From: Tissierellia bacterium
GTDB taxonomy: Bacteria > Bacillota > Clostridia > Tissierellales > Tissierellaceae
NCBI GenBank assembly: GCA_028708575.1
Contig: JAQVYQ010000007.1
Span: forward strand, 1-49,729
Direction of reading: 5' to 3'
Length of the DNA: 49,729 bases
Under the pieces are notes generated by a model, which saw nothing but the letters and a program-made list of their open reading frames with translations, made no database searches and was not told the origin of the DNA. Positions within the stretch are counted from its first letter, which is position 1, and every line of letters starts with the position of its first letter. Positions 19,976 through 49,574 of this stretch are shown piece after piece. The position numbers and the translations under genes were made by a program.

Positions 19976-20905
19976 TTGTATATAGTTGTGGAATACCTAG
20001 TAATAGAAAACTTCATTATTAATTTTTTTATTTTTTACCTAACTAAACTATTGATTAAGTCTGATGTAAAAATAAAAAAAATTATTATTGGATCTTCTTT
20101 AGCATCATTTTACCCACTAGCTTTTTTTTCTACAAAGACAATTTTTTTAACTACTCCTTTATTTAAACTATTATTATCTATGCTATTCATTAGAATAATA
20201 TTTGATTATATAAACGTAAAAATATTTTTAAAGGAATTAATTGCATTTTATATTATTTCCTTTTTATTTGCTGGTGCAACTCTAGGAGTATTTTATTCAA
20301 CTAGTAGTATTGTTGATATATGGAGTATGAGAATAGATACTCTTAATGGATTTCCTGTAAAATACTTAATAATTGGAGTGTTAGCAAGTTTAGTAGGGGG
20401 TAAAGTAGTTTTTCAATTTTATCATCAAAAAATACTAAGAGATGATTTCATTGCTTTAGTTTCCATAACATTTAAAAAACAAAATGTAAAATTAAAAGCG
20501 CTATTGGATACTGGGAATTCATTAGTAGTACCATTTACTAATAAAAAAGTTATAGTCGTTGAATATGAAAAACTAAAATCACTATTACCTCCTTTGATGA
20601 AGGAATTAATAAATGCAAATGAAGAAAGCAATTTTAAACTAGTAGAAGAATTATTAAAGAACTTACATCTAGAAATAAGGTTAACAATGATTCCCTTTAA
20701 TTCTATAGGGAAAAGTGGAATAATATTTGGTTTTACTCCTGATCAAGTTGCAATAAATTACAGGGGCAATGAGTATATTAAAGAGGATATCATCATAGGA
20801 ATATTTGCAGGTTCTCTTGAAAAAGAAATGGGATATAGCGGGTTAATGCATTATGAATTAATTAATGGGGGAGTCGAAAATGAATACTTTGAAATACAAA
20901 ATTAA
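19976..20905 (+). CDS. spoIIGA: Pro-sigma E processing aspartic peptidase SpoIIGA
   Basis: Membrane protease of 309 residues that cleaves pro-sigma E in the mother cell once sigma F acts in the forespore. The N-terminal half is five hydrophobic segments (from about residue 5 to 145). The C-terminal half is a pepsin/retropepsin-like domain with the catalytic DTGN at 178-181 and a typical [10 protein letters not shown] segment. The start TTG 19976 follows AGGAGAAG; no ATG is near. The end overlaps the start of sigE by 26 bases, so enzyme and substrate are translationally coupled, as in the family generally. Confidence 0.95.
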
Positions 20906-21593
20906 ACTCGTAATATATAAGTTTTTAAAAAAGTTAAATTTGCTTGAAAGAATAGATTATATAGGTACTGGAGAATCCTTACCCCCTCCATTAAATCCTG
21001 AAGAGGAATTATATTATTTAAATAATTTAAAAAAAGATGAATCTATTAAAGGAATATTAATAGAGAGAAATCTAAGACTGGTAGTGTACATTGCTAGGAA
21101 ATTTGATAATACTAAAGTGTCAATAGAAGATTTGATTTCAATTGGGACTATAGGACTTATAAAAGCAGTTAATACATTTGATCCTGATAAAAAAATAAAA
21201 CTAGCAACTTATGCTTCAAAATGTATTGAAAATGAAATATTAATGTATTTAAGAAAAAATAGCAAGCTTAAAAATGAGATTTCCTTTGATGAGCCGCTAA
21301 ATACAGATTGGGATGGTAATGAGTTATTGCTTTCGGATATATTAGGGACAGAAGGAGATATAGTTTCCAAGAATTTAGAAGAACAAGTTGATAAAACATT
21401 ATTATCAGAGGCAATTGAGAAATTGTCTATGAGAGAAAGGACTATTGTAGAATTAAGGTATGGATTGTCAAATGGATTAGAAAAGACACAAAAAGAAGTT
21501 GCAGATATATTAGGTATATCTCAATCATATATATCTAGATTAGAAAAAAGAATAATTAAAAGATTACGTAAGGAAATGGGCAGACTATTATGA
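20880..21593 (+). CDS. sigE: RNA polymerase sporulation sigma factor E (pro-form)
   Basis: Early mother-cell sigma factor of 237 residues. The N-terminal amphipathic pro-sequence of about 26 residues ([20 protein letters not shown]) precedes [12 protein letters not shown], the junction that SpoIIGA cuts. Region 2 has [15 protein letters not shown] and [20 protein letters not shown]. Region 4 has [11 protein letters not shown] and the helix-turn-helix [23 protein letters not shown] use ATG 20880, because GGGGGAG eight bases upstream is its ribosome site; the track's 20865 start would include it. Overlaps spoIIGA and ends just before a terminator. It should drive the promoter seen at 34622-34650. 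Confidence 0.97.
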
Positions 21594-21594
21594 C

Positions 21595-21630
21595 AAAGAG
21601 ATATTATCACCCGATAATATCTCTTTTATT
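21595..21630 (+). terminator. Terminator between sigE and sigG
   Basis: The 14-base stem AAAGAGATATTATC / GATAATATCTCTTT has an ACCC loop and is followed by TTATTAT. It should limit read-through from the spoIIG operon into sigG. Confidence 0.8.
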
Positions 21631-21661
21631 ATAAAAATTAAAATTGGACAAATAGTCTTAA

Positions 21662-21690
21662 GTATAAAAATACATATGAAGGAAATAATT
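21662..21690 (+). promoter_or_regulatory. Sigma F-like promoter of sigG
   Basis: GTATA at 21662-21666 matches the sigma F -35 GYATA. GGAAATAATT at 21681-21690 matches the remembered -10 GGNNANANTW at every defined position. The spacer is 14 bases, against about 15 in the family. Bacillus sigG (spoIIIG) is sigma F-dependent. The -10 lies inside the track's longer ORF, so the true start must be downstream. Confidence 0.6.
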
Positions 21691-21729
21691 TTAAATGAAA
21701 GGGGAAGTTTATATGAAAGGATGAATATC

Positions 21730-22503
21730 ATGCATGTGTCCAAAGTTGAGATTTGTGGAGTCAACACAGCTAAATTACCAGTTCTTACCCATGAGGAAAT
21801 GCAACAATTATTTGTTAAAATAAAAGCAGGAGATATGGTAGCTAGAGAGAAGTTTATTAAAGGCAATTTAAGATTAGTCTTGAGTATTATTCAGAGATTC
21901 AATAGAAGAGGGGAACCAGTAGACGATTTATTTCAGGTTGGATGTATTGGACTAATTAAAGCTATTGATAATTTTGATTTGAGCCATAATGTCAAATTCT
22001 CAACATATGCTGTCCCAATGATAATTGGAGAGATTAGAAGATATTTAAGGGATAATAATGCAATAAGAGTAAGTAGATCTTTACGAGATACTGCATATAA
22101 GGCTTTACAAGCGCGTGATTCTTATGTTCACAAGTATTCAAAAGAACCAACTGTTACTGAAATCGCAAAGATATTGAATCTACCAAAAGAAGATGTAGTA
22201 TTTGCTTTAGAGGCTATACAAGAACCTATATCATTATTTGAACCGATTTACCACGATAGTGGAGATGCAATTTATGTAGTTGATCAAGTAAAAGATGATA
22301 AAGCAGATGATGAAGTATGGCTTAGGGATATAAGTCTAAAAGAGGCTATGGGAAAACTAAATAATCGAGAAAAGGAAATTTTGAATTTAAGATTTTTTGA
22401 AGGCAAGACTCAAATGGAAGTAGCAAATGAAATAGGAATATCACAAGCTCAAGTTTCTCGGCTTGAAAAAAATGCTTTAAGGCAAATGAGAAAACATGTT
22501 TAA
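21730..22503 (+). CDS. sigG: RNA polymerase sporulation sigma factor G
   Basis: Late forespore sigma factor, 257 residues with this start (Bacillus has 260). The N-terminus KVEICGVNTAKLPVL is diagnostic of sigma G. Region 2 has GNLRLVLSIIQRFNRRGE and DDLFQVGCIGLIKAIDNFDLSHNVKFSTYAVPMIIGEIRR. Region 4 has KTQMEVANEIGISQAQVSRLEKNALRQM. ATG 21730 gives MHVSKVEIC, aligning exactly with MSRNKVEIC of Bacillus; ATG 21721 is the alternative and the track's 21676 is too far upstream, overlapping the promoter. There is no pro-sequence, as expected. It follows sigE as in Bacillus. Confidence 0.97.
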   Translation: MHVSKVEICGVNTAKLPVLTHEEMQQLFVKIKAGDMVAREKFIKGNLRLVLSIIQRFNRRGEPVDDLFQVGCIGLIKAIDNFDLSHNVKFSTYAVPMIIGEIRRYLRDNNAIRVSRSLRDTAYKALQARDSYVHKYSKEPTVTEIAKILNLPKEDVVFALEAIQEPISLFEPIYHDSGDAIYVVDQVKDDKADDEVWLRDISLKEAMGKLNNREKEILNLRFFEGKTQMEVANEIGISQAQVSRLEKNALRQMRKHV

Positions 22504-32282: not shown

Positions 32283-32312
32283 TCAAGAGGCTTATTAGGC
32301 CTCTTTTTTTTT
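32283..32312 (+). terminator. Intrinsic terminator of argH
   Basis: AAGAGGC / GCCTCTT with a 7-base loop is followed by a run of T. Confidence 0.92.
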
Positions 32313-32349
32313 GATATAAGAATCTGTTTATTATTTTAGTCTAAATTTG

Positions 32350-32358
32350 TGTTATAAT
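32350..32358 (+). promoter_or_regulatory. Extended -10 promoter of tdh
   Basis: TGTTATAAT (TGN extension plus perfect -10) lies about 60 bases before the tdh start and downstream of the argH terminator. The -35 is poor. Confidence 0.6.
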
Positions 32359-32419
32359 AAAGTTAAAGTAATACTCGTTTATATCGAGCAAATTCTTAAT
32401 AAAACTGGAGGTGCTGTAA

Positions 32420-33382
32420 TTGAGAAAAATATTAGTAACAGGTGCGCTAGGTCAAATAGGTTCAGAGCTTATGGTAAAGCTAAGAGAAATTTATGGAGTT
32501 AACAATGCAGTAGCAAGTAATAGAAGGATTAAAGAGGGGCATGAGGCTTTAATCGAAAATGGACCATTTGAAATAGTTAATATCAATAATCTAAAGCAAA
32601 TGGCGGATGTTGTTGATAAATACAATATTAATACAATTATCAATTTAGCCGCTATTTTATCCGCAAAGGGGGAAAATGATCCAGCTAGCTGTTGGGACAT
32701 AAATATGAACGGATTATACAATGTCCTTGAATTGGGAAGAGAAAAACGTTTACAAATTTTCACACCAAGTTCAATAGCTGCATTTGGACCTTCTACACCA
32801 CCGGATAATACGCCACAAGACACTATACAAAGACCAAATACTATGTACGGTGTTACTAAAGTAGCTGGTGAATTGCTATGTGATTATTATTATAAAAAAT
32901 TTGATGTTGATACTAGGGGAGTTAGATTTCCAGGTTTAATATCATATGAAACACTACCAGGTGGCGGAACAACGGATTATGCAGTTCATATTTATTACGA
33001 AGCACTTAAGCATAAGAAATATACAAGCTTTATAGATAAAGGAACCCAAATGGATATGATGTATATGCCAGATGCACTTGATGCGATTGTTAGTTTAATG
33101 GAGGCAGACCCGGCAAAATTAAAGCATAGAAATGCATTTAATGTAACTGCAATGAGCTTTGAGCCTGAAGAAATTGCAGCATCAATAAAAGAACATATAC
33201 CAGAGTTCAAATTAGATTATGATGTAGACTCAGGTAGACAAGCAATAGCAGATTCATGGCCGAATTCATTAGATGATTCAGCAGCTAGAGAAGAATGGGG
33301 CTGGAATCCTAAGTATAATTTAGAAGCAATGACAAAGGATATGTTAGAAAAATTAAGGATTAAACTTAATATTGAAGATTAA
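32420..33382 (+). CDS. tdh: L-threonine 3-dehydrogenase, short-chain (SDR) type
   Basis: NAD-dependent oxidation of L-threonine to 2-amino-3-ketobutyrate, feeding glycine and acetyl-CoA formation. The 320-residue protein is an extended SDR with the dinucleotide motif TGALGQIGSEL at the N-terminus and catalytic Tyr-x3-Lys in TMYGVTKVAGEL. Segments VRFPGLISYETLPGGGTTDYA, MYMPDALDAI and WPNSLDDSAAREEWGW are characteristic of SDR-type threonine dehydrogenases rather than of UDP-sugar epimerases. Start TTG 32420 follows GGAGGTG. It is monocistronic and faces the minus-strand gene. No kbl gene is next to it. Confidence 0.9.
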   Translation: MRKILVTGALGQIGSELMVKLREIYGVNNAVASNRRIKEGHEALIENGPFEIVNINNLKQMADVVDKYNINTIINLAAILSAKGENDPASCWDINMNGLYNVLELGREKRLQIFTPSSIAAFGPSTPPDNTPQDTIQRPNTMYGVTKVAGELLCDYYYKKFDVDTRGVRFPGLISYETLPGGGTTDYAVHIYYEALKHKKYTSFIDKGTQMDMMYMPDALDAIVSLMEADPAKLKHRNAFNVTAMSFEPEEIAASIKEHIPEFKLDYDVDSGRQAIADSWPNSLDDSAAREEWGWNPKYNLEAMTKDMLEKLRIKLNIED

Positions 33383-33417
33383 TATTTACTTAAGTATTTT
33401 TAATTAATGATTTATAT

Positions 33418-33453
33418 ATGACCCTCCAATTCCAAAAAACATTGGAGGGTCAT
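33418..33453. terminator. Hairpin between convergent genes
   Basis: A perfect 13-base stem ATGACCCTCCAAT / ATTGGAGGGTCAT with a 10-base loop lies between tdh (+) and the 33476-34579 gene (-). There is no long T-run on either side. It probably ends transcripts in both directions. Confidence 0.6.
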
Positions 33454-33475
33454 ATGAATTAATAAAGAAGTTGAG

Positions 33476-34579
33476 TCAGTCAAAAAATATTCTTTTCAAT
33501 ATGCTTTTATTTTGTTTTTTAAATGAATCCTCTATATCAAAAATTTTTGATTTGAGAATTTCCTGTTTATATAAAAGATCCTTTAGATTTATCAATATTT
33601 CTTCTTGATTTAATAACAAGATTTCATATTTAAGTTTACTTGATTCATCTGTAAAATCATCATCTGGAGGAAATTCATAAGAATCTTCATTATTTATGGA
33701 ATCTTCTGTTATAATGTCTGAACCATTTTCAACAATTAGATTATTGCCAATTTCTTTTTCATCCTTAATCCAATTCATGCCAAAATCATTTGATATTAAA
33801 ACATAGTCTAAGCATTCAATATAAATATTATTATTTATTCCATATATCTTTGATGATGCCTTATCTTGAATAATTGAAGGTATAATCATTGCTTTCCATT
33901 TATACATTTCCGAGCCAGATGGGCTCAATTTCTTATATTTTAGTATGTATCCATTTGAAGTTTTCTCCCACCATGTACCATGAATATTATCCATATGATC
34001 CACAAAGATTGAAGGGGATTCGCTATGACTATCGGAACTAGATAATCTCATAGGATTAGTTAACCATTGATTCTTATATGGGTTAAAGTATATATAGTAA
34101 ATATAAGAGAAGTTTTTTGAAATAGTGTTATAAAATAAATGTATATTATTTTTTGAATCATTATCTACTACAAAATGATAACCTTGGCTTTTTGAAACGA
34201 ATTTGATAACACTATTCTTTTCTTGAGAATTATTGGATAAAATAATATGATGTATTGTATGAACATTTGGGTTCATTATATTATAAAATGAATAGATTAG
34301 ATTTAATTTCTTATTGATGTTTAATATGGAAATACCATTATATATATTGGATTTTACATCAAACTTGCCAATCAAAAACTCAGTTATTTCTTCATTATTA
34401 ATATATTTATAGCTTAAAGAACCATTATTTTGTAAATATACCAAATAAATTGAATTATTGTCATTAATTATATAGTCATAAATTAAAACATTATGTTCAA
34501 CAACTAAATTGTTAACATCTTCATTATTTAAAGACGTCATATATTTTAATGTGCCATCAGATTCCAATATAAATTTCAT
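33476..34579 (-). CDS. Uncharacterised beta-propeller-like protein with C-terminal coiled coil, putative sporulation gene
   Basis: I do not recognise a named family. The 367-residue protein has no signal peptide or transmembrane segment. It contains at least four or five beta-rich repeats of about 45-50 residues, each with a pattern like NNIHLFYNT (145-153) or DNIHGTWWEKT (197-207), followed by a Y-rich strand. Residues 263-270, SNDFGMNW, match the Asp-box SxDxGxxW of sialidase-like propellers. An acidic linker (285-312) leads to a lysine-rich coiled coil (about 313-365). GGAGGG lies nine bases before its ATG. Only complete minus-strand gene in the window, with a sigma E-like promoter (34622-34650). 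A mother-cell coat or assembly role is inferred, not shown. Confidence 0.8.
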   Translation of the reverse strand: MKFILESDGTLKYMTSLNNEDVNNLVVEHNVLIYDYIINDNNSIYLVYLQNNGSLSYKYINNEEITEFLIGKFDVKSNIYNGISILNINKKLNLIYSFYNIMNPNVHTIHHIILSNNSQEKNSVIKFVSKSQGYHFVVDNDSKNNIHLFYNTISKNFSYIYYIYFNPYKNQWLTNPMRLSSSDSHSESPSIFVDHMDNIHGTWWEKTSNGYILKYKKLSPSGSEMYKWKAMIIPSIIQDKASSKIYGINNNIYIECLDYVLISNDFGMNWIKDEKEIGNNLIVENGSDIITEDSINNEDSYEFPPDDDFTDESSKLKYEILLLNQEEILINLKDLLYKQEILKSKIFDIEDSFKKQNKSILKRIFFD

Positions 34580-34601
34580 TTATTAATCCCTCCAAAACTA
34601 T

Positions 34602-34629
34602 CACAATTATATCTACACTACATAATATG
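34602..34629 (+). promoter_or_regulatory. Possible sigma K or sigma E promoter of the 34668 gene
   Basis: CACA (34602-34605), a 15-base spacer and CATAATATG (34621-34629) resemble the sigma K pattern mACm ... CATAnnnTA, with one -10 mismatch and a spacer about one base short. The -10 is a near-palindrome shared with the minus-strand promoter. Weaker than the minus-strand site. Confidence 0.4.
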
Positions 34630-34650
34630 TAATCAGTAAAGAAAATATTA
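34622..34650 (-). promoter_or_regulatory. Sigma E-like promoter of the minus-strand propeller gene
   Basis: On the minus strand, TAATATT (34650-34644) matches the remembered sigma E -35 KMATATW at all seven positions. After 14 bases comes CATATTAT (34629-34622), matching 6 of 8 positions of CATACAHT. The start site would fall near 34615, leaving a leader of about 35 bases that contains the ribosome site. Confidence 0.6.
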
Positions 34651-34667
34651 TAAAGGAGTGTATCTAT

Positions 34668-35279
34668 ATGGTTGAGAAAAATAGTGTAGATCAAATGGAA
34701 ATCCTACGATGCCTGGAAAATGACTGTGTTATTATTGATAAAGTCTTTGCAAGCTGTCAACAGAGAGAATGTTTCCCAGATTTAGAATACAGTATAGATG
34801 AATGTTCTTTTGATAGAGTGAGATTTAGACCAGGATTTATAGTGCCAAATACATTAGTAGTTAAAGACATTAAAAACAGAGAAGATTTTAGAAGGGTAAA
34901 ATTCACAATCAGAATACCATTTCAAGTATTAGATGAAAATGGAAACGTAGAAAGAGAATTCTTTTTACCAGATATATTTAAAGATGTAATTCTATACATT
35001 CCAGATGCAAGAGATGAGTTTGATTTTAGAATAGTAGTCGAAACACAATCTGTATTATTATCATGTCCAATAGTTTCAGGTGGAGAATTAAATATAACTG
35101 TAGGGGTATTTATTATAGTTAAAGTAGTAGGAACAGTACAATTGATGATACCAACATTCGGATACTGCCAAACCCCACCACCATGCGAGGAATTTAGTCC
35201 AGAAGATATATGTGATGATTTCGATAATGCAGAATTTCCTGATTTTTTCCCACCGCAATTAGGGGATCTGATCGGATAG
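34668..35279 (+). CDS. Uncharacterised cysteine-rich beta protein, possibly a spore surface protein
   Basis: No family recognised with certainty. The 203-residue protein has no signal peptide or clear membrane helix. Nine cysteines are at 15, 20, 30, 35, 46, 133, 167, 173 and 182, grouped in an N-terminal cluster (LRCLENDC, FASCQQREC) and a C-terminal one (YCQTPPPC). Between them are amphipathic beta strands such as RRVKFTIRIPFQVLD, FRIVVETQSVLLSC and a hydrophobic stretch VGVFIIVKVVGTVQLMIP. The end is acidic and aromatic. Cysteine-rich, beta-rich cytosolic proteins of this size in spore formers are often coat or exosporium components; I infer this from composition and the mother-cell-type promoter only. 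AAAGGAG precedes the ATG, and a terminator follows. Confidence 0.8.
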   Translation: MVEKNSVDQMEILRCLENDCVIIDKVFASCQQRECFPDLEYSIDECSFDRVRFRPGFIVPNTLVVKDIKNREDFRRVKFTIRIPFQVLDENGNVEREFFLPDIFKDVILYIPDARDEFDFRIVVETQSVLLSCPIVSGGELNITVGVFIIVKVVGTVQLMIPTFGYCQTPPPCEEFSPEDICDDFDNAEFPDFFPPQLGDLIG

Positions 35280-35287
35280 TAAATATG

Positions 35288-35312
35288 AAAAAGAGCTTAG
35301 GCTCTTTTTTTT
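35288..35312 (+). terminator. Intrinsic terminator of the cysteine-rich protein gene
   Basis: AAAAAGAGC / GCTCTTTTT with a TTAG loop runs into a T-tract. Confidence 0.92.
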
Positions 35313-35349
35313 ATGTAAAAATAATTAGTTAATATTCTATTTTTTAATG

Positions 35350-35378
35350 TTGACAAATTTACTGGGGTATACTATACT
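35350..35378 (+). promoter_or_regulatory. Sigma A promoter of iscR-nifS-nifU with overlapping palindromic operator
   Basis: TTGACA (35350-35355), a 17-base spacer and TATACT (35373-35378) form a near-consensus promoter. The palindrome GTATA-C-TATAC (35367-35377) overlaps the -10 and is a likely operator for the Rrf2 regulator encoded next, giving autorepression. The operator role is inferred. Confidence 0.75.
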
Positions 35379-35426
35379 AAATATTGAAAGCCGACTGAAG
35401 TGGTTGGGATTAAAAGAGGTGGTAAA

Positions 35427-35840
35427 ATGAAGCTATCAACAAGAGGAAGATATGGTTTAATGGCAATGTATCAGCTTGCATTGGAATTTAGTGATGAACC
35501 AATTTCGTTAAAATATATTGCTGAGAAACAAGGACTATCAGAGAATTATTTAGAACAATTGTTTTCTAATCTTAAGAGAGATGGTCTTATACAAAGTGTA
35601 AGAGGTGCTCAAGGTGGATACATATTATCTAGACTACCCAGTGACATAACTGTAGGTGAAGTCCTGAGGAGTTTAGAAGGAACACTGGCTCCTGCAGATT
35701 GTGTTATGCACGACTTTGATTGTTCTAAAGAGGAAAATTGTGTTACAAAGTTAGTTTTGGTTAAAATAAAAAATAGTATTGATTCTGTTGTTGATTCAAT
35801 TACATTACGGGATATGGTTGAGGAAACATTAAATAATTAA
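35427..35840 (+). CDS. iscR: Rrf2-family [2Fe-2S] transcriptional regulator, IscR-like
   Basis: Winged-helix repressor of 137 residues. The N-terminal half opens [18 protein letters not shown] and contains the recognition region [29 protein letters not shown]. Cysteines at 92, 99 and 105 match the spacing of the IscR iron-sulfur ligands closely. It probably senses Fe-S status and represses its own operon through the palindrome at 35367-35377. ATG 35427 follows AGAGGTGG; the track start 35400 is too long. It precedes the cysteine desulfurase and scaffold genes. Confidence 0.93.
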
Positions 35841-35859
35841 TAATATTAGGAGGCATACG

Positions 35860-37041
35860 ATGGAAAAAAATATATACATGGATAATGCTGCAACAACAAA
35901 AGTTCGAAAGGAAGTACTAGATGAAATGCTCCCATATTTTTCAGATAATTATGGTAATCCTTCTAGTATTTATGCATTGGGTTCTAGATCAAAAGTTGCA
36001 GTTGAAAAAGCAAGGGAACAAGTAGCAGATGCTCTTAATGCAGATAAAAATGAAATCTTCTTCACTGCTGGTGGTTCAGAATCCGACAACTGGGCAATTA
36101 AGGGAGTAGCCTTAAGAAATAGAGAAAAAGGAAATCATATTATTACTACAAAAATAGAACATCACGCAGTTTTGCATACTTGTCAATATTTGGAAAAAGA
36201 TGGATTTGAAGTAACTTATTTAGATGTAGACGAAGATGGTCTAATAGACTTAGAAGAACTTAGATCTGCAATAACTGACAAGACTATATTAATTACTATA
36301 ATGTTTGCAAACAATGAAATTGGAACCTTAGAACCAATAGAAGAAATTGGTAGAATAGCAAAAGAGAATAACATTATTTTTCACACTGATGCTGTTCAAG
36401 CTGTTGGAAGTATAAAAATAGACGTAAAGGCAATGAATATAGACCTTCTATCTCTTTCAGGACATAAAATTTATGGCCCTAAAGGAATAGGCGCCCTATA
36501 TATTAAAAAAGGATTAAGGTTTGATAATCTAATCGAAGGTGGAGCTCAGGAACGAAACCGAAGAGCTGGGACAGAAAATGTTTCAGGAATTGTAGGTTTA
36601 GGAAAAGCAATAGAACTTGCAAGTAAAGAATTAGTTGAAAAGAGTGAAAGGTTAATATATTTAAGAGATAGATTAATGACTAAAATAGAAAAAAACATTA
36701 AACATGTTAGACTAAATGGTCATAGGTCAAAGAGACTACCTGGCAATGTAAATTACTCTATTGAATATATAGAAGGTGAATCCATATTATTAAGCCTTGA
36801 TATGGAAGGTATTGCTGCATCAAGTGGTTCAGCCTGTACATCAGGATCCCTTGATCCCTCCCATGTTTTATTAGCTATAGGATTACCTCATGGAATAGCA
36901 CACGGATCCTTAAGATTATCCTTAGGAATGTACAATACTGAAGAAGAAGTAGACTATGTAGTAGAAAAATTAGCTGAAATAGTTGACAGATTACGAAACA
37001 TGTCACCATTATATAATGAAAGAAAAACGGGGGTAATATAA
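35860..37041 (+). CDS. nifS: Cysteine desulfurase (NifS/IscS type)
   Basis: PLP enzyme of 393 residues that removes sulfur from cysteine and supplies it to the scaffold protein encoded next. It opens [15 protein letters not shown], has [14 protein letters not shown], the HHAV motif in [19 protein letters not shown], and the PLP lysine in [17 protein letters not shown]. The mobile loop [10 protein letters not shown] carries the persulfide cysteine. C-terminus is complete. AGGAGG precedes the ATG. Its stop is directly followed by the ATG of nifU, so the pair is translationally coupled. Confidence 0.97.
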
Positions 37042-37479
37042 ATGATGTATTCAGAAAAAGTTATGGAACATTTCAAAAATCCAAGAAATGTTGGAGAAAT
37101 AGAGGATGCAAATGGTGTAGGTGAAGTTGGAAATGCAAAATGTGGAGATATAATGAAGATGTTTTTAAAGATAGAAGACGGAGTTATTGAAGATGTTAAA
37201 TTCCAAACCTTTGGATGCGGATCAGCAATTGCATCATCAAGTATGGCTACAGAATTAATAAAAGGGAAGTCTATTGATGAAGCAATGTCATTAACGAATA
37301 AAGCTGTAGTTGAAGCACTAGATGGTCTTCCACCAGTAAAGATTCATTGTTCTGTTTTAGCTGAGCAAGCAATTAAATCTGCACTTCTTGATTATTCAAA
37401 GAAAAACAATGTTAAAATAGAGGGCTTAGATGATTTTGACTTTGATGAAGATGATCATCATGCAGAAATAGAGGATTAA
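37042..37479 (+). CDS. nifU: Fe-S cluster assembly scaffold protein (NifU/IscU N-terminal type)
   Basis: Scaffold of 145 residues on which Fe-S clusters are built with sulfur from NifS. It opens YSEKVMEHFKNPRNVGEIEDA and has three cluster cysteines, in NAKCGD, FGCGSA and KIHCSVLAEQA. The C-terminus is an acidic, histidine-containing tail DFDFDEDDHHAEIED. It lacks the central ferredoxin and C-terminal Nfu domains of full NifU, so it is IscU-like in extent. Two ATG codons are adjacent; 37042 abuts the nifS stop. Confidence 0.96.
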   Translation: MMYSEKVMEHFKNPRNVGEIEDANGVGEVGNAKCGDIMKMFLKIEDGVIEDVKFQTFGCGSAIASSSMATELIKGKSIDEAMSLTNKAVVEALDGLPPVKIHCSVLAEQAIKSALLDYSKKNNVKIEGLDDFDFDEDDHHAEIED

Positions 37480-37497
37480 TGACAATTAATGATAATT

Positions 37498-37526
37498 AAG
37501 GAAGGCTTTATGCCTTCTTTTATTTT
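37498..37526 (+). terminator. Intrinsic terminator of the iscR-nifS-nifU operon
   Basis: AAGGAAGGC / GCCTTCTTT with a short loop is followed by TATTTTA. Confidence 0.8.
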
Positions 37527-37629
37527 AGTTAGACATTTTACAAAAATACGTCCATTAATGTTTGTAAGTAAGCTAGCATTAGATTTGCAAAAAAAGATTC
37601 AATAAAACTAAAGAAGATTAACTATGGAA

Positions 37630-37658
37630 TTGACAATATATTCATATTAAATTAAAAT
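37630..37658 (+). promoter_or_regulatory. Sigma A promoter of alaS
   Basis: TTGACA (37630-37635), a 17-base spacer and TAAAAT (37653-37658) form a near-consensus promoter. The rest of the 243-base gap before alaS holds the nifU terminator and a leader hairpin; I see no T-box. Confidence 0.8.
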
Positions 37659-37660
37659 AT

Positions 37661-37686
37661 CAGTAGTATAGAACTTCTTGCTACTG
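37661..37686 (+). other. Leader hairpin of alaS
   Basis: CAGTAG / CTACTG pair across a 14-base loop at the very start of the predicted alaS transcript. It could stabilise the mRNA 5' end or be a binding site. The loop sequence does not fit a T-box. Confidence 0.35.
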
Positions 37687-37722
37687 AGTTAATAGATTGA
37701 ACTAAGATGATGAGGTGTATTT

Positions 37723-40362
37723 ATGAGGGAAATGGGATTACATGAGATTAGAAAAGAATTTTTAGATTTTTTTAGAGAAAAAGAACATATAATAGCACCA
37801 AGTTTTTCTCTTGTGCCTAAGAATGATAAGTCACTATTATTAATAGGTGCTGGCATGGCGCCACTTAAACGATATTTTACAGGAGAAGCAACACCTCCAA
37901 GTAATAGAATGTCTACTTGCCAAAAGTGTATACGTACTGGTGATATAGACAATGTAGGCAAAACTGCAAGACATGCTACTTTTTTTGAGATGCTGGGTAA
38001 TTTTTCTTTTGGAGACTATTTTAAAGAAGAAGCCATTTCATGGGCATGGGAATTTTTAACAGAAAGGGTAGAATTAGACCCTGAAAAACTATGGATAACA
38101 ATATATTTAGATGATGACGAAGCGCATGACATTTGGAAGAATAAAATTGGTGTTCCAGAAGAAAGAATTGTTAGACTAGGGAAAAAGGATAATTTTTGGG
38201 AATTAGAAGTAGGCCCATCTGGTCCATGTTCTGAAATCCATATTGATAGAGGAGAAGAATTTGGTTGTGGCAGACCAGATTGTAAACCTGGCTGCGATTG
38301 TGATAGGTTTTTAGAAATCTGGAATCTTGTATTTACACAATTTGATAAAGATGAGCAAGGAGTATACCATCCTCTACCAAATCCTAACATAGATACAGGT
38401 ATGGGTTTAGAAAGAATTGCAGCCGTAGTTGAAAATGCAGACAATATATTTGAAATTGGTGCAATAAACCATATTCTAAATGAAGTAGAAAAGGTAAGCA
38501 ATTATAAATATGGTTCAGATAAAGAAAAGGATGTGTCTGTAAGAGTAATAGTTGACCACACTAGAGCTATGACTTTTTTAGTTTCTGATGGCGTACTCCC
38601 AAGTAATGAAGGAAGAGGTTATGTACTTAGAAGACTAATAAGAAGAGCAGCAAGACATGGAAAATTACTAGGTATAAATAAGGAATTTCTAACAGAAATA
38701 GCTGATGTAGTGATTAAGTCCTGGTCTATAGAATATAAAGAATTATTGACACGAGAAGGTCAAATAAAAAAGATAATTAGAGCTGAAGAAGAAAAGTTTC
38801 AAGAAACATTAGATCAGGGTATTTCAATATTAGAGCATTACATTGAAGAAATGTATAAGAACAATAAAGGAGAATTAGAAGGGGAAAAAGCTTTTAAATT
38901 ATATGATACATTTGGCTTCCCATTAGAGTTGACAAAAGAAATTTTAGAAGAGAGAAATTTAAGCTTAAACGAAGAAGAATTTAATGAACATATGGAAGAG
39001 CAACGATCTAGAGCAAGACAAGCAAGAGAAGAAGGAGACAGTGGATGGGGAGTATCTCATCAAGATGATTTATTTGAAGGGCTTGAAACAGTATTTAAAG
39101 GTTATGAAGTAACAAATTTAGTAACACATATAACAAAAATTCTAAAAGAGAATTCCAAAGCAGAGGAACTAAATATAAGTGAAGAGGGAATCTTGGTGCT
39201 TCAAGAAACACCATTTTATGGTGAATCTGGAGGTCAAGTTGGAGATATTGGAGTCATAGGATCTAGTAACTTCAAAGGGGAAGTAATAGACACTCAAAAA
39301 ACTAAAGGTGGACTTCCACTTCACTATGTAAAAATAGTTGAAGGCAATGCTAAAATTGGAGACATAGTAGTAGCAACTGTTGATGAGAGAAGTCGAAATG
39401 CTACAAGAAGAAATCACTCTGCAACCCATGTACTTCATAAAGCATTAAAAGATGTATTAGGGGAACATGTAAATCAAGCTGGTTCATTAGTTACACCTAA
39501 TAGAATGCGTTTTGATTTTACTCATTTTGAAGGTATATCAAAAGATGATTTAGACAAAATAGAAAGAATTGTAAATGATAAAATATTGCAAGCTCTAGAT
39601 GTAGTAACTATAGAAACATCTCTTAAAGAAGCTCAGGAGATGGGAGCAGTAGGATTGTTTGAGGATAAATATGGAGACGAAGTAAGAATTATAAGAATTG
39701 GTGATTATAGTCAAGAATTATGTGGAGGTACCCATGTAAAAAATACATCAAATATTGGGATGTTTAAGATAATGTCTGAATTTGGAATTGCTAGTGGTGT
39801 TCGTAGAATTGAAGCAATTACAGGACTAAGTGTATATGAATACCTAATAGACTTGGAAGAAGAAACTGAAGTAATAAGCAATATTCTTAAGACAAGCAAA
39901 CAAAATTTGCTGGAAAAGGCACATACATTAATTGATGAGCTTAAGGTTAAAGATAAGGAAATAGAAAAATTAAAAAGCAAACTATCAACAAATATAGCTG
40001 AAGAAATATTAGGTACAAAAGAAATAGTAGAGGGTATAAATCTAATAACATATAAATCAAAAGACTTAGATATGGATGGGTTAAGAAATTTAGGGGATGA
40101 AATAAAGAATAAGATTGATTCAGGAGTAATAGTTTTAGCGTCTATAGCTAATAATAGAGTTTCATTTGTATCTATGGTAACAAAGGATCTAAATTCAAAA
40201 GGCATTTTAGCTGGAAATATAATTAAAGAGGTAGCTAAGGCAACAGGCGGCGGTGGAGGTGGAAGACCAGATATGGCACAAGCTGGTGGAAAGGATGTTT
40301 CAAAAGTAGATGAGGCTCTTTCTATTGTTAATAATTTAATTAAAATACAAATTAATAAATAG
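37723..40362 (+). CDS. alaS: Alanyl-tRNA synthetase
   Basis: Class II synthetase of 879 residues with all domains. The catalytic core opens MGLHEIRKEFLDFF and contains RHATFFEMLGNFSFGDYFK. The editing domain has the zinc motif HSATHVLHKAL and later CGGTH. The oligomerisation domain contains a coiled coil (about 740-770). The C-terminal C-Ala/DHHA1 part ends ATGGGGGGRPDMAQAGG, as in the family. GATGAGGTG precedes the ATG. It opens the conserved alaS-ireB-ruvX-yrzB neighbourhood. Confidence 0.98.
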   Translation: MREMGLHEIRKEFLDFFREKEHIIAPSFSLVPKNDKSLLLIGAGMAPLKRYFTGEATPPSNRMSTCQKCIRTGDIDNVGKTARHATFFEMLGNFSFGDYFKEEAISWAWEFLTERVELDPEKLWITIYLDDDEAHDIWKNKIGVPEERIVRLGKKDNFWELEVGPSGPCSEIHIDRGEEFGCGRPDCKPGCDCDRFLEIWNLVFTQFDKDEQGVYHPLPNPNIDTGMGLERIAAVVENADNIFEIGAINHILNEVEKVSNYKYGSDKEKDVSVRVIVDHTRAMTFLVSDGVLPSNEGRGYVLRRLIRRAARHGKLLGINKEFLTEIADVVIKSWSIEYKELLTREGQIKKIIRAEEEKFQETLDQGISILEHYIEEMYKNNKGELEGEKAFKLYDTFGFPLELTKEILEERNLSLNEEEFNEHMEEQRSRARQAREEGDSGWGVSHQDDLFEGLETVFKGYEVTNLVTHITKILKENSKAEELNISEEGILVLQETPFYGESGGQVGDIGVIGSSNFKGEVIDTQKTKGGLPLHYVKIVEGNAKIGDIVVATVDERSRNATRRNHSATHVLHKALKDVLGEHVNQAGSLVTPNRMRFDFTHFEGISKDDLDKIERIVNDKILQALDVVTIETSLKEAQEMGAVGLFEDKYGDEVRIIRIGDYSQELCGGTHVKNTSNIGMFKIMSEFGIASGVRRIEAITGLSVYEYLIDLEEETEVISNILKTSKQNLLEKAHTLIDELKVKDKEIEKLKSKLSTNIAEEILGTKEIVEGINLITYKSKDLDMDGLRNLGDEIKNKIDSGVIVLASIANNRVSFVSMVTKDLNSKGILAGNIIKEVAKATGGGGGGRPDMAQAGGKDVSKVDEALSIVNNLIKIQINK

Positions 40363-48851: not shown

Positions 48852-48872
48852 TAATCATTGGGGGTGTATTTT

Positions 48873-49574
48873 ATGAAAAGATTAATCTTGAAACTATTTA
48901 ATTCAGTATTAAAGCCTTTCGTATTACTTTGCGGCTACATGATGAACTCAAACTCATTCCCAAAGCCATTAACAAAGGAAGAAGAAACATATTATTTACA
49001 GAAATATAATGATGGAGATGAAGAAGCAAAAAAAATACTAATAGAAAGAAACTTAAGATTAGTAGCACATATTGTTAAGAAGTATAATAATACTGGGAAG
49101 GATATGGAAGATCTATTATCTATTGGGACAATTGGTTTAATAAAAGCTATTACAACATTTAAGCCAGACAAAGGAACAAGACTAGCTACTTATGCTGCAA
49201 GATGCATTGATAATGAGATACTAATGACAATAAGATCAACAAAAAAAGAGAGAGCCGAGTTTTCATTAAACGAACCAATAGGAATTGATAAGGAAGGTAA
49301 CGAAATAAATTTATTAGATATTTTAGGAACTGATGCAGATGATGTAATTGATAAAGTCGATTTAAGGATTCAAACAAATAAATTATATAAAGCTATAAAT
49401 CAAGTTTTAAAAGATAGAGAAAAAGTAATTATACAATTAAGATATGGATTAGTAGATGGGGGATGCAATACTCAAAGGGAAATAGCAGCTATGCTAGGCA
49501 TTTCTAGATCTTATGTGTCCAGGATTGAAACTAGAGCCATTGAAAAACTAAGTAAAGAATTAAATAAGAATTAG
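48873..49574 (+). CDS. sigK: RNA polymerase sporulation sigma factor K (pro-form)
   Basis: Late mother-cell sigma factor of 233 residues. The hydrophobic N-terminus (LFNSVLKPFVLLCGY) followed by SNSFPKPLTKEEE aligns with the Bacillus pro-sequence, so cleavage is expected near Gly21/Tyr22 by an SpoIVFB-type protease. Region 2 has RNLRLVAHIVKKYNNTGKDMEDLLSIGTIGL; region 4 has TQREIAAMLGISRSYVSRIETRA. The gene is continuous, with no skin-type element. ATG 48873 follows TTGGGGGTG; the track's TTG 48858 lies in that ribosome site. The pro-sequence contrasts with Clostridioides difficile, whose sigma K lacks one. Confidence 0.96.
   Translation: MKRLILKLFNSVLKPFVLLCGYMMNSNSFPKPLTKEEETYYLQKYNDGDEEAKKILIERNLRLVAHIVKKYNNTGKDMEDLLSIGTIGLIKAITTFKPDKGTRLATYAARCIDNEILMTIRSTKKERAEFSLNEPIGIDKEGNEINLLDILGTDADDVIDKVDLRIQTNKLYKAINQVLKDREKVIIQLRYGLVDGGCNTQREIAAMLGISRSYVSRIETRAIEKLSKELNKN

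Follow-up and report, generated by a model that had tools for sequence, protein, structure and literature searches.

The locus described here raises the question of what two genes make that face away from each other across a gap of 88 bp, and how one short stretch of DNA can serve as promoter for both of them. The pair lies on contig JAQVYQ010000007.1 of a Tissierellia bacterium, within a stretch of 49,729 nucleotides that was analyzed as a whole and is referred to as the window. The minus gene (33476..34579, minus strand) encodes a protein of 367 amino acids and the plus gene (34668..35279, plus strand) a protein of 203 amino acids with nine cysteines, whereas the 88 bp between them (34580..34667) constitute the bidirectional promoter region. 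This divergent pair had been described in an original prediction made from the DNA sequence, and both open reading frames (ORFs) were found intact where it had placed them. Likewise, the minus gene is, among ORFs of at least 80 amino acids, the only long minus-strand ORF of the window without a plus-strand gene opposite it, and in neither protein is a signal peptide apparent by inspection, both as had been claimed. The window is DNA of a spore former, since it contains spoIIGA, sigE, sigG, and an uninterrupted sigK without a skin-type insertion (19976-22503 and 48858-49574). We consider it likely that the pair represents, in a spore former of the Tissierellales, an exosporium locus of the CsxA type, consisting of a lattice protein, a propeller partner, and a common -10 element that would be read by sigma E early and by sigma K late.

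By its sequence, the plus protein falls into the CsxA-like family of cysteine-rich exosporium proteins. Its cysteines are located at positions 15, 20, 30, 35, 46, 133, 167, 173, and 182, whereby Cys20, 30, 35, 167, 173, and 182 are invariant across 23 relatives, and the closest relatives also keep the C-terminal block VQLLIPxxGYCPxPPxC...FPxFFPPQ. The remoter relatives include Clostridium proteins of 250-300 amino acids with 6-22 cysteines. Comparison of the window plus family by hhalign yielded an E-value of 1e-41 to 24 mostly Clostridium relatives and of 4e-17 to cysteine-rich proteins from zapA-linked and comparable loci, which are more divergent; CsxA-family homology denotes here a match to such family relatives, with the type protein, C. 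sporogenes CsxA, standing outside the comparison. Pfam, NCBIfam, and PDB sequence searches with both window proteins led to no family. The CsxA lattice self-assembles, is disulfide linked, and is required for the exosporium (PMC7333573), and the plus protein, as a predicted lattice protein, probably forms the tiling of the outer spore shell.

The original prediction had regarded the pair as an undescribed spore-assembly system. This part did not hold, since the plus protein belongs with the CsxA-like exosporium proteins and a conserved ORF divergent from csxA had already been drawn by Janganan et al. (2020). In C. sporogenes, csxA is located between zapA and a U32 peptidase gene, with a “highly conserved ORF” in divergent orientation (PMC7333573). 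The window locus resembles the CsxA locus of C. sporogenes and C. botulinum group I (PMC7333573, PMC4942563) with respect to the cysteine-rich protein, the divergent conserved partner, and the profile homology, and in three genomes with Clostridium homologues (G171, G172, and G180) the pair is found between zapA/pheT and the U32 peptidase gene, as is csxA in C. sporogenes. It differs in that CsxA has 299 amino acids and 25 cysteines, and in that the window pair is not located between zapA and a U32 peptidase gene but precedes iscR/nifS/iscU, which the plus gene adjoins amid housekeeping genes. The position between zapA and U32, which among the relatives is occupied in Clostridium only, is a trait of the C. 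sporogenes locus and does not define the CsxA-like family; remoter csxA homologues are known from other locus contexts (PMC7333573). A search of Clostridiaceae genomes for the exact CsxA by length, cysteine count, and synteny yielded close analogues and no exact match. As a separate observation, one locus of this kind (L163) carries a cysteine-rich DUF4489 protein with 20 cysteines and a DUF7852 protein (L163:12019-12567 and L163:7303-8097) beside CsxA-like genes between zapA and the U32 peptidase gene, which are likely further spore-surface proteins.

The domain of the plus protein also occurs embedded in larger proteins, namely in a Tissierella-type protein of 1047 amino acids (L052:215-3355) and in a same-genus protein of 992 amino acids (G001, L180:641-3616). 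The latter has three DUF4183 and two DUF11 matches in addition and shows the architecture of F-Anchor-3, a DUF4183/DUF11/CsxA-like protein of C. aceticum, in which the domain between DUF11 and DUF4183 has been named CsxA-like (PMC11952670). F-Anchor-3 contains the plus-protein domain, whereas in the window plus protein this domain stands alone. The window's own genome yielded no F-Anchor, and the plus domain has a single match there; the F-Anchor-type proteins in close relatives (L180, L052) suggest that F-ENA spore fibres occur in this group. A further likeness concerns the BMQ_0737 family morphogenetic spore coat protein (NF052457), a family with a role in the outer coat or outermost spore layers of B. 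megaterium. Weak matches to this model were obtained for 9 of 26 diverse plus relatives (best 2.4e-6), whereas neither the window protein nor any of its 22 nearest relatives gave a match, and among 40 relatives no member was found at the curated cut-off. Short cysteine-rich relatives from Sulfobacillus and its relatives (L102, L105, L106, L108, and L111) match BMQ_0737 and bridge the clostridial CsxA-like proteins and the Bacillus outer-layer protein.

In order to describe the divergent partner, we rely on its AlphaFold model (mean predicted local distance difference test, pLDDT, 84.7), which predicts a beta-propeller for residues 1-275 (33755..34579, minus strand) and a long helix for residues 312-366 (33482..33646, minus strand). 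Foldseek of this model returned beta-propeller hydrolases and lectins (best E-value 8.0e-8, TM about 0.5), and the sequence searches yielded weak sialidase/BNR-type matches as well as coiled-coil matches in PDB. The fold resembles that of Asp-box/BNR beta-propellers (sialidases, PLL lectins, and GH families), and one clear Asp box is present (SNDFGMNW, residues 263-270); it differs from these proteins in lacking a Pfam or NCBIfam match and in having a coiled-coil stalk. Behind the coiled coil follows a short basic/hydrophobic tail (33479-33505 in the window, SILKRIFFD; also in L082 and L114), which in relatives has forms such as SFFRKLFK, is kept across distant classes, from Tissierellales to Desulfotomaculum-like genomes, and might be a targeting peptide. 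Thus modeled, the minus protein is a beta-propeller not described before, followed by a coiled coil and a conserved C-terminal tail. The propellers that are divergent from the Clostridium cysteine-rich proteins are homologous to it (profile comparison, E-value 2e-24), and it probably corresponds to the “highly conserved ORF” that faces away from csxA. Clostridia are described to be without a homologue of the ExsF anchor (PMC7333573), and in the literature searched there is no description of a propeller in the exosporium; the most likely function of the minus protein would be that of an assembly or anchoring partner of the lattice protein. Apart from this, several Clostridium and Peptococcaceae-type loci (L080, L082, L083, L084, and L110) carry a CsxA-like domain, or a degenerate copy of it, fused behind a YncE/YVTN beta-propeller, so that propeller and lattice domain are combined in a single chain in some lineages.

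The suggested link to sporulation and to a role at the spore surface agrees with the assignment to the CsxA-like family and with the distribution of the pair. Among 40 genomes of close relatives, in which SpoIVA was used as sporulation marker, 27 were SpoIVA-positive and 13 SpoIVA-negative, with SpoIVA losses scattered across several genera and families. The minus protein is present in exactly the same 27 genomes and in none of the 13 (Fisher 8e-11, a statistic that ignores phylogeny). The plus protein is present in 26 of the 27, and the only SpoIVA-positive genome without it is G035, where a 4.5-kb contig ends at the minus gene. Neither gene was found in any of the 13 SpoIVA-negative relatives; homologues in non-spore-forming relatives had been named as what would speak against the original prediction. 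In a class-wide survey of 391 Clostridia genomes (281 SpoIVA-positive and 110 SpoIVA-negative) the plus family occurs in 234 genomes, which include 219 of the SpoIVA-positive and 15 of the SpoIVA-negative ones; for the minus family the corresponding numbers are 80 and 7. Among the 70 minus-family matches listed, 60 have a plus-family match no more than 2.5 kb away, and every one of these 60 pairs, from 46 genomes, is divergent; named genomes ranging from Tissierella to Alkaliphilus, Clostridium, and Dethiobacter show this pairing as well. The pair is sporulation-linked and moves as a divergent unit. Very small Clostridia genomes of 0.8-0.9 Mb (G254, G292, G347, G416, and G516) also keep SpoIVA together with a CsxA-like protein.

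The 88-bp gap has the layout CACA-N15-CATAATATG-N14-AATATTA, in which one symmetric -10 element, CATAATATG (34621..34629), can be read in both directions. It is flanked on one side by a sigma-K-type -35 element of the plus gene (CACA, 34602..34605, plus strand) and on the other side by a sigma-E-type -35 element of the minus gene (34644..34650; TAATATT on the minus strand). A sigma-E-like and a sigma-K-like promoter that have one near-palindromic -10 element in common had been predicted here, and the spacing of N14 on the minus side was confirmed. Sigma E and sigma K recognize almost the same -10 sequences and differ in their -35 sequences, which are ATA and AC, respectively (PMC3789822), and in B. 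subtilis the spacings between the longer boxes are 12±1 for sigma E and 14-16 for sigma K, to which the window spacings fit (PMC517825). The minus-side promoter, TAATATT-N14-CATATTAT, agrees with sigma E in its ATA-type -35, its CATA-type -10, and a spacing of 12±1 between the 8-nt and 10-nt boxes, and CATATTAT has been described as canonical (PMC3789822). The plus-side promoter, TCACA-N14-ACATAATATG, agrees with sigma K in its AC-type -35, its CATA-type -10, and a spacing of 14-16 between the 5-nt and 10-nt boxes. Both promoters are conserved. Ribosome-binding sites are present for the minus gene (GGAGGG on the minus strand, 34588..34593) and for the plus gene (AAAGGAG, 34652..34658, plus strand).

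In the aligned intergenic regions of relatives, the central CATANTATG is found in 23 of 23, and it occurs in 39 of 50 named divergent loci compared to 0.6 expected after shuffling, which exceeds chance; these 39 are all the Tissierellales and Alkaliphilus-type divergent pairs recovered. CATANTATG is a perfect inverted repeat with invariant arms and a free centre base (A, T, or C). Across the aligned relatives, CAC[AC] is located 14-15 bases upstream of it on the plus strand and TATTA (TAATA on the minus strand) at a fixed distance on the opposite side. The -35 positions played no part in sequence choice or alignment. A genome-wide pattern search with the composite CACM-N14/15-CATANTATG-N16-TATWA revealed one site per genome, solely at the pair locus, in 22 of the 27 SpoIVA-positive relatives and in 0 of the 13 SpoIVA-negative ones, whereby the reversed-pattern control gave 0 matches. 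Its presence at the pair locus is expected from how the composite was derived, whereas its absence elsewhere in the genomes is not. The five SpoIVA-positive genomes without the composite show a CAGA variant (G010, G017, and G023), a TATTT variant (G028), or are cut by a contig end (G035). A divergent layout with a mirror-symmetric promoter is retained throughout an entire order of spore formers. The last position of the plus-side -10 is G and not A, and this G at +4, the end of CATANTATG, is invariant. In the B. subtilis sigma-K consensus, A is favoured at this position. The invariant G is at the same time the C of the minus-strand -10, and nothing but a minus-strand -10 accounts for it. On the minus strand, ATTACA-16-TATAAT was dismissed as a promoter of the sigma-70 type, because shuffled sequences yield more such sites than were found.

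In terms of promoter sequence, the arrangement is specific for the clade and apparently split between two mother-cell sigma factors. Polymerase with sigma E and the ATA-type -35 would read the symmetric -10 leftward, early in the mother cell, into the propeller gene, and polymerase with sigma K and the AC-type -35 would read it rightward, late, into the lattice gene. Because both complexes would need the same nine bases, only one could be bound at a time, so that synthesis of the partner would precede that of the lattice subunit. Together with its stalk and tail, the propeller would then be the first to reach the forespore and act as attachment or nucleation site, where the plus protein is predicted to self-assemble into a disulfide-linked outer spore lattice. 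In its strongest form, a developmental toggle in which the propeller scaffold is made and the lattice gene blocked as long as sigma E occupies the -10, until sigma K takes its place, the direction flips, and the lattice is built on the scaffold, this idea is tentative and rather doubtful; if true, the assembly order of a spore layer would be encoded in nine base pairs. It might instead be that the same mother-cell sigma factor is used both ways (both sigma K, or both sigma E and then sigma K), resulting in co-expression and no phase switch. The two readings of the -10 are near-identical, as are the -10 elements of sigma E and sigma K in general, and in E. coli divergent transcription from a common -10 is an established mechanism (PMC12825309), but the two -35 elements are unlike each other (AC and ATA, on opposite sides) and both are conserved, and we regard this alternative as unlikely. 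It would be far less probable still that CATANTATG is chiefly the operator of a dimeric regulator for both genes and only secondarily promoter-like: its inverted repeat with a free centre would suit such a regulator, but it fits a mother-cell -10 whichever way it is read, nearly all loci have the right -35, properly spaced, on either side of it, and the composite with both -35 elements is confined to the pair locus.

Several points weigh against the interpretation as a CsxA-type locus read by sigma E and sigma K. The nearest zapA-linked protein has 297 amino acids and 22 cysteines, compared to 299 and 25 for CsxA, and Foldseek of the plus-protein model gave no credible match to any solved fold. 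The plus family is broad and is linked to the BMQ_0737 outer-coat family, and therefore a coat rather than an exosporium could be concerned. It is thus conceivable that the pair builds a coat layer, with the plus protein being a generic coat protein that is rich in cysteine and only distantly related to CsxA, in line with the remote BMQ_0737 link and with the fact that an exosporium of these species is not reported in the literature searched; given the profile homology to the CsxA-like family, we consider this improbable. Furthermore, the common -10 of the window is absent from most Clostridium loci examined, and it is therefore not required for the function of the pair in general, although CATANTATG is found between the pair in some of them (L160, L161, and L165). 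The sigma assignments derive from the promoter sequences. Finally, SpoIVA was undetected in the seven minus-family genomes mentioned above, of which four are 61-85% and three 92-94% complete, and therefore some of them may be cases of missed SpoIVA and some true exceptions.

Sigma-70 promoters with a common symmetric -10 are frequent in E. coli and drive divergent transcription (Warman, Grainger; PMC12825309), so the principle of a common -10 transcribed both ways is already known. The window promoter differs from them in that its -35 elements are of two developmental sigma types and in that the arrangement is conserved over an order at one locus; in the literature searched, the coverage of which was limited, there was no instance of a conserved symmetric -10 split between two successive developmental sigma factors. 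New here are the nature of the partner, which is predicted to combine a beta-propeller and a coiled coil, and the conserved symmetric promoter of two apparent sigma types. A propeller protein divergent from a CsxA-like gene in dozens of genera presents a concrete candidate for starting or attaching the clostridial exosporium lattice, and the promoter offers a compact test case for how one DNA element could pass from a first sigma factor to the next, with transcription then running the opposite way.

With regard to the remaining sequence, no Rfam elements were found within 32300-38000, and a plasmid search with a Clostridium homologue returned nothing. A weak Sm-protein match of the plus profile and PrgH matches were judged to be due to chance. 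On the 3' side of the plus gene, a terminator-like hairpin is located at 35288..35309.
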